Positions 19,613-59,900 of a stretch of 64,000 nucleotides of DNA are shown in pieces. The notes below the pieces were generated by a model, which was given only the letters and a program-made list of their open reading frames with translations, did no database searches and was not told the origin of the DNA. The translations under genes were made by a program, and so were the position numbers. The number at the start of each line of letters is the position of its first letter. Position 1 is the first letter of the stretch. This stretch comes from Willaertia magna (taxonomy: Eukaryota; Heterolobosea; Eutetramitea; Acrasida; Naegleriidae): NCBI GenBank assembly GCA_902984215.1, contig CADWAF010003358.1, positions 1 through 64,000 on the forward strand, in the 5' to 3' direction.

Positions 19613-20003
19613 TCTAGTGTTCTTTTGTTTTTTTTGAAAATATTGTAGACGGTAATTTGTAATTTTTGAAACGAAAAATGGAGGGATTTTACCATTCGAT
19701 ACTTGACCTTTCTTTACAAAATGACTTCTTAGCAACCGTAAATAAACAGCTTTTGGCAGCATAATTAACAAATAGTAGTTGTTGGACTATCACTTTAAAA
19801 TTGCTTTTCAATAGTTTTAAGAAGTTAATAGTATCCGATAATTGGTAAAAAGTATCTTGTTGTTTGGTGATTTCATCACTGATAAAAATTTGGAACTATT
19901 TATCAGGGCATTTGTCTCTAAGGTGAAACAGGCAAATTTTTACTGAACGATTTTTATTAAAAGCGAAAATGATTTTTGTTTTGAGCAAAAAAATATATCA
20001 ACA
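19613..20003. other. divergent promoter between ADF and pyrophosphatase
   Basis: About 390 bases shared by two outward-facing genes. The first 150 bases are an in-frame open extension of the ADF gene that may be 5' UTR. The rest is AT-rich, with no clear promoter motif apart from GATTTCATCACTGAT-type imperfect dyads. Confidence 0.5.
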
Positions 20004-20828
20004 ATGGCACACGCATGGCATGGTAAGTACAAGAATTGCGTCATTATTAATTAACTGTTATTTTGCAGATTTGGGTAAGTTTGAAAATTTCAATAATTTA
20101 TCAATTAAAAAATAATTTTTTGGTTAGACGTAAGTTTTATTTTGTTTTTGGAATAGTTTATTAACTCTGTAATAGTGGAGATGTGAAAAGGGTGAACACA
20201 TCAGTGAAGAAGACCCAACAATGTTTAACTGTGTTATTGAAATTCCAATGGGATCTAAAGTAAAATACGAATTAGATAAAGAAACAGGTTTATTAAAAGT
20301 AGATCGTATTCTTTCATCATCTGTAAGTAGAATTTAACGAGTTGTTGGCATAACCCATTTGTTTAGGTTGTATACCCAGCAAACTATGGTTTCATTCCAC
20401 AAACCTATGGTGATGATCATGATCCTCTTGATGTCTTAGTTTTAATGCAACAATCTGTTGCTCCACTTATTTTCCTCCGTGCAAAACCTATTGGTGTTAT
20501 GTGGATGACTGATAACGGTGAAAAGGATGATAAAATTGTTTGCGTACATGCAGATGACCCAGAATATAACCATTATAATGATATTTCTGAACTTCCTCCA
20601 CACAAATTACAAGAATTAAGAATTTTCTTTGAAGATTATAAAAAATTAGAAAAGAAGACAGTTAGAGTTGATGGTTTCGAAGGTCCAGCTGAATCAAGAA
20701 AGATTGTTGCTAACGGAATTAAAGCATACAAGGAATATGTTAAACAAAAAGAACAAGAAGGAGAAGAATTAATCTCACCTAAGTTTAAAGCATATAAGAA
20801 CTTCTTCGGAAAGGAAGAACAAAATTAA
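20004..20828 (+). CDS. soluble inorganic pyrophosphatase, five exons with micro-exons
   Basis: Family I pyrophosphatase that hydrolyses PPi to phosphate in the cytosol and pulls biosynthetic reactions forward. Proposed exons: 20004-20022, 20069-20074 (6 nt), 20128-20129 (2 nt), 20176-20322 and 20367-20828, giving 211 aa. Each intron (46, 53, 46, 44 nt) begins GTAAGT and ends AG. The start reads MAHAWHDLDW, like the conserved HPWHDL of plant and bacterial enzymes. Then follow [51 protein letters not shown] and [18 protein letters not shown], carrying the metal-binding acidic residues. Alternative: splicing from 20074 directly to 20210 also restores frame and avoids the 2-nt exon. The downstream enzyme part is certain; the 5' splice pattern is not. 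Confidence 0.93.
20069..20129 (+). other. proposed 6-nt (20069-20074) and 2-nt (20128-20129) micro-exons
   Basis: ATTTGG sits between GCAG and GTAAGT. AC sits between TTAG and GTAAGT. The 6-nt exon can be skipped without changing frame. The 2-nt exon is needed for frame if the next acceptor is at 20175. All flanking introns have the size normal for this genome. Confidence 0.55.
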
Positions 20829-56914: not shown

Positions 56915-59900
56915 ATGTGGTCTGAATCACCAACATTAAATACTAATCCAGTTAATTTAACTTCAGAAGAACTAATTACTTCCGAAGAATATATTGACGA
57001 CTCAACTTATACTAATCATGATACACATCATCATGTAGTAAATGGAACATCTATAGAACAAGAAATAATGATGTTACCTCATCATAGTACAATAAATTCA
57101 AGTAATAATAATAGAATTGAAGCGTCTCATATATTTTTATATTCTAGAGATTATTCTCTATTTAGAAGAACAGAAAGATTAATATGGCATTTAAATCATT
57201 TACACACAAATATTAATTTACAAATTCAAAAAGATAATTTTTCTTCTCATACTTTTAGTCAACAAAAGAACGTAAAAGTAATTTCATCTTCTTCGAGAAA
57301 GTTTTCATCTTTAAAAAGAAATCGTTTTCTAAAATTATCAGATGAATTAATTTCCGATAATGAAAGTGGTGTTAATGGAGTAGATACAAACAATTCACCA
57401 ACTGAAAGTTATTTAAGTGAAGATAGTAGTATTATTAGTAATAATTCTTCTTATATTTCAACATCAAATAATAATTCAACAAGAATTAATAGATCATCTA
57501 GTTTTTATCAACCACATAAATATAATAATAGATCTACTTCTGGAGTGTCAAATAGTTTTAATAGAAAAGTAGCTTATAATTCACCTGTAACGAATGAAAA
57601 TGAAAATAATTATAATATAACGAGGAGTGTTAGTATGGTTGATCAATTGAATCAATCAACATCTAATAATATTACTAGAAGTGTAAGTATTGATCAAATA
57701 CATCACCCAGTTGTAGGTATTATACTTCCACCAATGCACACTTCTACTACAATGACATCTATTCATGGTGTTGAAGAAAATACAGGTGATAATGAGAATG
57801 AAACATTAAGTACAACATCTAATGCAAGTTCTCATTTATTGATTGATGAAAGTCAACTGGCAATGGAATTACTACCAAGTACTTTTGTACATACTGTTTA
57901 TTCAAAATATAATATTGTTATAACGATTGATATAAGTTCTTCTATGGTAGCTATTGATCCATCTACTGGTGAAGTTTTATTTGATAGAATTTATGATATT
58001 TATGCAAATATTTTGAGAAGATTAACTGAACCAATAACAATACCAAAATATGATGGTGAAATAATACCAGAATTACATTTGACAGGTATAGCAATAGGGA
58101 TGGTTGGAAAACCAATTCATACAATGTTTCAAGATTTTAGTATAACATGTGATAATATTGATGAATCATTGTATAAAATTAAGAGATTTATTGTAGAAAC
58201 AGAACATATCGCTTCAAATGCATTAAGAAATTCTAAATCATGGAATAGTCAATCTGCTACATTTAAATTTAATAATTATATAATGAATTCTTTATTGGCT
58301 TTTGATTTTCTTCCAAAAGATGCATGTCCTGTATTATTATTAATAACTGATGGAGTATTTAATTTAAGTGAATTGTCATATGAAATAATTAATCATATTA
58401 ATCAAATGGATGTTAGTTTTGGTTTAGTTAATATTTCAAATATTCAAACAAATAATGATTTTCTTTATAGTTATGTTCCAAATATTGATTTAATGGAATC
58501 TATTGTTACTTGTGTAGATAATGGTGTCTATATAGATTATGATTATTTATCTAGATCATTATTAGAAACTACTGATAGATTGAAAACAAAGAATATTCAA
58601 GAAGCATTACTTTTAAGAAATTCTCCTTTCTTTGTATCTAATGATTCTGATGCTTTATTATTAACTTCTAATGAAGGAAATGTTTTATCCTTATTAAAAG
58701 CAAAAGATAAAACATTACAAGAAATTGAAATGATAAACTATCCTTTACACATGACAAATATTGAATCATTACTTAAAATAAGAACAAAACAAGGATTTAA
58801 AGTGATGGATATTAAATATGTAAAAAATACAGATTCTATAACTAATTTTAAAACTGAATATGAAAAATTAGAAGTTAAATTTGTAAGATTAAGTTATTTA
58901 TTTAAAAGAAATATTGAGATTATTTATAAATTACAAATAGAAAGATCTAATAATGAAATGGAAGAACAATCTAGTTATATGTCTTCTGGATTTGGTTTAT
59001 CAAAATTACAAAGAATGAATAAGGCAGTTATCTCAATTTCTGTTGTAATGCAAAAATCTATATTTGAAAAGTTTAATTTATTTATTAAAAAGAGAGCAAA
59101 AACACCTCAAGATTCTTTATTTAAATCAATACATGAATTTATTCAAAATGTAAATATAGAGGATGTTTTAGTAGAACAATATTATAACTTTGCTGAAAAG
59201 GCATCCAGTAACAAAATTTCAATAAGAAAGTCAGATTTGACAAGTATCAACTTGGAGCATAGTAGAGAGTTACTTTTTGATATACAATCATTATTACTTA
59301 GATTTTCATTTGATAATAATCATGTATCATCCAGAGCTGAACCTATAGTTCAAACAATTTTATCACAACTTTTACCAAGTAAAGAATCAACAGAATTAAC
59401 TCCTACAACGCCTACAAGTAATCCTTATAGTATTTTAAAGAATGGTCTTGAAAAGAATTGGTCATCTTTTAGAATTAATGATGAATTATTTATCAAATTT
59501 ATTTCTGAACAAGAATGTACCTATTTTTTATATAATGATATTGATGATAGTGAACTATTAACAATGGAGGAGAAAGAAACATGCTATTCAAATGGTTTTT
59601 GTGCCTTAAATATTAATTATCATTCTAATTCCTTCCTTGAAATTACATGTAGATTTTTTAATGTGTCATCTTTTACTATAAGGAAAATGATGGATCAATT
59701 GAAACAACAATTCTTTTCATTATTCCAACATAAGGGAATCAATACCTCATTCTTGAATAATTGTTCACTTGGTAAAATTATTGAGCGATTACCAAAATGT
59801 AAAGAAGATGAGGTACAATATATATCTTCTTTATTTAGTGTGGCACCTCATTACACTTCCTATTTAAAACACAGAAATTGGGTTTGGCCTTTGGGAGGAA

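Follow-up and report, generated by a model that had tools for sequence, protein, structure and literature searches.

The dinucleotide AC at positions 20128–20129 of the window, a 64,000-nt stretch of Willaertia magna DNA from an assembly of 19.24 Mb in 894 contigs, is very probably a 2-nt exon of an inorganic pyrophosphatase gene, included, we infer, in the mRNA. This was the reading of the initial annotation, and comparison of the genome with related proteins supports it. The gene consists of the following features, all on the forward strand, where percentiles refer to 67 introns modelled elsewhere in the same genome.

19969..20022, forward strand: overlapping start of the public gene model in another frame, an exact translation match to public protein P0002
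20004..20022, forward strand: exon 1, 19 nt; ATG at 20004, encoding MAHAWH, with one base left over for the codon that follows
20023..20068, forward strand: intron 1, 46 nt, GTAAGT..GCAG; donor at the 60th percentile, with a weak CAG acceptor at the 10th
20069..20074, forward strand: exon 2, the 6-nt ATTTGG; finishes the D codon, supplies L and starts the codon of a second D; retained by the public model
20075..20127, forward strand: intron 2, 53 nt, GTAAGT..TTAG; donor at the 96th percentile, acceptor at the 39th
20128..20129, forward strand: putative exon 3, the 2-nt AC; would end the Asp codon GAC
20130..20175, forward strand: intron 3, 46 nt, GTAAGT..ATAG; donor at the 82nd percentile, acceptor at the 46th
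20176..20322, forward strand: exon 4; peptide conserved in Naegleria lovaniensis P0247, acceptor shared with the public model
20323..20366, forward strand: intron 4, 44 nt; donor at the 30th percentile, acceptor at the 13th
20367..20828, forward strand: exon 5; remainder of the pyrophosphatase including the stop codon

Joined, the five exons encode 211 amino acids with no internal stop and with the N-terminus MAHAWHDLDWRCEKG, which divides by exon as MAHAWH-DL-D-WRCEKGE; the first 27 coding bases are spread over three exons (19 + 6 + 2 nt) that, with their introns, occupy 172 bases. The coordinates, exon letters and splice borders first given for this region agree with the sequence base for base, and intron lengths of 46, 53 and 46 nt are, as had been claimed, normal for this DNA (the 67 modelled introns span 35–112 nt, with a median of 49). 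Exons 5 and 4 match PF00719 at 155.6 and 32.6 bits, respectively, against a curated cut-off of 23.5, which by the Pfam criterion places the product in family I of the inorganic pyrophosphatases, and its best protein match is the W. magna protein P0002 (ABK040_008828; 97% identity), whereas the initial annotation had taken the DNA for Naegleria. Two further loci of this family, both above the Pfam cut-off, occur in the W. magna assembly (G000:C221:29012-29473 on the reverse strand and G000:C449:25039-25614 on the forward strand).

The reading frame carries much of the argument for AC. Without AC, MAHAWHDL and WRCEKGE lack the two bases that would bring them into one frame. All single GT–AG internal exons that donor 20075 and acceptor 20175 could enclose were enumerated, with minimum lengths of 25 and 20 nt for the flanking introns, and AC alone allows translation to run on to the natural stop. 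The earlier claim that the frame is lost without AC if 20175 is the acceptor proved correct, as the product then ends after 11 residues (MAHAWHDLVEM-stop). Skipping the 6-nt exon keeps the frame while skipping AC shifts it, and the triplet immediately before 20176 is an in-frame TAG, so the open frame of exon 4 cannot reach upstream without a splice. The Asp that AC completes is the second commonest residue at its position (17 of 101 WHD-containing homologues among the matches listed), after Glu (24). AC shows two attributes of an ultra-small spliceosomal microexon: as an internal exon it would lie between canonical GT–AG introns of normal length, and a conserved protein depends on it for its reading frame. 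A second acceptor, at 20190, is also in frame when combined with AC, but scores 3.4 bits versus 6.1 at 20175, would remove the conserved WRCEK and still requires AC. A 2-nt slip in the assembly is unlikely, since the public W. magna protein, which derives from another contig (1,292,540 versus 101,374 bases), matches the same exons letter for letter.

Splice signals were scored against introns modelled by an iterative scan of 324 kb of the same genome, which kept 68, or 67 outside the pyrophosphatase gene; selection of this set was motif-trained and also filtered on acceptor score, and the set probably includes some false introns. The donor is GTAAGT or GTATGT in 57 of the 68, and 42 end in TAG. 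Summed over the region, the signals give 28.8 bits for the model with AC (less if 2-nt exons carry a prior penalty), 1.9 bits for a single 101-nt intron from 20075 to 20175 and −8.6 bits for splicing directly to 20210. Donors of the GTAAGT/GTATGT type at least as good as the one that follows AC number 47 in 648,000 strand-bases of the W. magna genome, and only at the AC site does such a donor lie exactly 2 nt past an acceptor as good as 20127. When the gap to a good acceptor is widened to 0–12 nt, two of the 47 qualify, the AC site and one within a long open frame; no donor as good occurs in the 3,551 bases that the 67 modelled introns comprise. A convincing, frame-fitting 2-nt cassette within this single interval is therefore improbable as an accident. 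A scan for exons of 1–12 nt with normal introns and coding flanks returned two distinct sites, with the AC site ranked first. A probable decoy lies elsewhere in the window, at 57678–57682, where a long open frame contains a strong acceptor with a strong GTAAGT 1 or 4 nt beyond it. Two of the genomic stretches analysed, L107 (C551:1-10000) and L023 (C1:1-10000), differ in base composition from the others, with 15% and 17% GC versus 24–31%.

Both sides of the AC junction resemble sequences in other proteins. The start MAHAWHDL is identical in P0003 and in Acrasis kona P0004, and, in agreement with the proposed match of HAWHDLD to the family start, 94 of 120 homologues among the matches listed (P0002 counted among the 120) have the motif H[APS]WHD in roughly their first 15 residues. 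Downstream, the last 200 of the 599 residues of N. lovaniensis P0247 (C9374_012707) are 81% identical to the W. magna product and begin WRCEKGEDVPEDDPTIFN. WRCEKGE and the residue after it form an 8-residue insertion relative to the family, present in W. magna and N. lovaniensis and in none of the eight other relatives aligned; a search with the N-terminal fragment likewise found it absent from the eight examined among 120 listed of 644 matches. In the suggested comparison with Naegleria, the WRCEKGE peptide is kept in P0247, whose similarity begins only there; the HAWHDL exons are absent from that gene model. P0247 itself appears to be a DJ-1/PfpI-type protein fused to the pyrophosphatase just ahead of WRCEKGE, probably a gene-model error. 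Searches for the corresponding DNA of relatives gave four pattern matches in viral contigs, none of them confirmed, and, in genome contigs, relatives of which the best 80 of 142 carried bacterial titles. The distance from WHD to VIEIP is 16 residues in 95 of the 96 homologues in which it could be measured and 15 in the other (among 120 matches listed, of which 22 lacked the second motif and two the first). It would be 24 with AC and 12 with splicing to 20210, so that spacing by itself backs neither model.

The initial annotation had offered direct splicing from 20074 to 20210 as the rival to AC; a join to 20210 (or 20213) would give MAHAWHDLEDPTMFN and leave both AC and 20176–20209 intronic. 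Such a transcript makes a microexon unnecessary and stays in frame as far as the natural stop, but we regard it as extremely unlikely, being strongly contradicted by splice score, base composition and the N. lovaniensis peptide. With −1.5 bits at 20209 and −1.3 bits at 20212, its acceptors fall below those of all 67 modelled introns. Because that set had been filtered on acceptor score, acceptors were also picked by coding score alone for 35 donors: 34 offered a choice, 27 of the picks coincided with the trained acceptor, and none of the 34 scored as low as −1.5. The intron required would be 135 nt long, versus 112 nt for the longest modelled, and the 34 nt that it would additionally remove are 44% GC, a value matched by no 34-base stretch in the 67 introns. 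Positions 20176–20208 are moreover coding-like by 13.6 bits, a score reached by none of 715 windows within modelled introns (maximum 9.9), and the peptide lost is the one conserved in N. lovaniensis. Splicing to 20210 would also cut by four residues the spacing that is constant in 95 of 96 homologues among the matches listed. The in-frame 20210 acceptor was open to the public annotation pipeline too, yet was not picked.

What that pipeline produced instead, P0002, is the letter-for-letter translation of 19969–20022, 20069–20074, 20176–20322 and 20367–20828. Both ATTTGG and the acceptor of exon 4 are retained in it, but AC is omitted and translation begins at a different ATG in a different frame, so that the family N-terminus is missing. 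A 2-nt exon overlooked in annotation would explain this altered N-terminus, as would genuine skipping of AC; errors of this kind have been described for missed 1-nt exons in plants (PMC8831610). The public model may instead be right as it stands, with a start at 19969, 20074 joined to 20176 and AC intronic, for its frame is open across the 20074/20176 join, it matches P0002 exactly and its annotation was probably guided by RNA-seq; if ABK040 denotes the T5(S)44 assembly, as we infer, the pipeline comprised HISAT2, Trinity, GMAP and BRAKER2 with RNA-seq (PMC11702301). We nevertheless think this very unlikely, as the model drops the family-matching MAHAWHDL for sequence without family resemblance, does not account for the good acceptor that stands only 2 nt ahead of a strong donor, and requires an intron of 101 nt, a length exceeded by just one of the 67 modelled. 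Several points weigh against the reading with AC: the 20074–20176 junction of the public model, if RNA-guided as is probable, could reflect real skipping; the protein would carry the 8-residue insertion, so far apparently shared only with N. lovaniensis, against the constant spacing of 95 of 96 listed homologues; the HAWHDL exons are missing from the N. lovaniensis model; and the acceptor of intron 1 is weak.

There is also a slim chance that both forms are made and that AC acts as a switch, its inclusion giving the standard enzyme and its skipping either a dead message (the 11-residue product) or, from the ATG at 19969, an enzyme with another N-terminus. AC would then be a real exon, and this slim chance is accordingly contained in, rather than additional to, the probability of the AC exon. 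The frames are open in the combinations required, and the public junction may be a genuine skipped junction. On the other hand, a second frame that stays open for some 20 codons arises by chance fairly readily (we estimate about one in six), and the same junction is expected from aligners blind to tiny exons. The frame that begins at 19969 supplies 20 residues without Asp or Glu and, when AC is skipped, runs open via the 6-nt exon to exon 4. In principle both outcomes could then be productive, the second yielding the enzyme with a basic N-terminus that is free of acidic residues and could target an organelle, although we doubt this strongly.

If AC is an exon, the most likely mechanism is that these short introns are recognized singly as units (intron definition), in which case a complex across the exon (exon definition) would not be required for AC. 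Acceptor 20127 and donor 20130 are too close for joint occupancy, so introns 2 and 3 would leave sequentially, aided by their GTAAGTTT donors, and once the first had gone the other would meet an exon of ordinary, or at least greater, length. AC would then give GAC (Asp) its last two bases and set MAHAWHDLD in frame with exon 4. In plants, introns flanking microexons appear to be removed consecutively, and in one class reads from downstream-first removal were the more numerous in 32 of 49 cases (PMC8831610).

Such an exon would extend the range of exons of 1–2 nt to the Heterolobosea, distant from plants, animals and fungi, and the compact layout (19, 6 and 2 nt) would suit minigene tests of the smallest exon that intron definition allows. 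It also marks an annotation trap, as both heterolobosean models found with the insertion (P0002 and P0247) lack the HAWHDL start. In the open-access literature we found no report of microexons in Naegleria, and a search there for a two-nucleotide exon returned only a disease-genetics database, judged by its title; the available portions of PMC6892926 and PMC7285305 make no mention of introns in the W. magna pyrophosphatase gene.

The suggestion that 2 nt is about as small as an exon can be has been overtaken by exons of 1 nt already in print, in APC11 of Arabidopsis (PMC4674806), in VPS55 (PMC8831610) and in CYP621A of Fusarium (PMC12940212), while exons of 2–5 bp had previously been identified in Arabidopsis, Drosophila and humans (as cited in PMC12940212). 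AC thus appears to be a remarkable further example of the tiny exons already known from plants and fungi. As in Arabidopsis APC11, a sub-codon exon between GT–AG introns would restore the frame and would have been overlooked by annotation; however, the plant exon is 1 nt long, its two introns total 422 nt, and it was proven by cDNA and minigenes (PMC4674806), whereas that predicted from the amoeba genome is 2 nt long and has introns of 53 and 46 nt. Strong donors and adjacent microexons are features shared with the plant microexons of 1–15 nt that include APC11 and VPS55, where one rice transcript has neighbours of 5 and 12 nt; those are supported by 990 RNA-seq sets and kept across plants, in contrast to one gene and genomic evidence in W. 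magna (PMC8831610). The 1-nt exon of Fusarium CYP621A is likewise marked by a phase mismatch at a conserved motif and by an apparent intron more than twice the median length, and there 20 orthologues and SRA reads provide the support that the genome provides for AC (PMC12940212).
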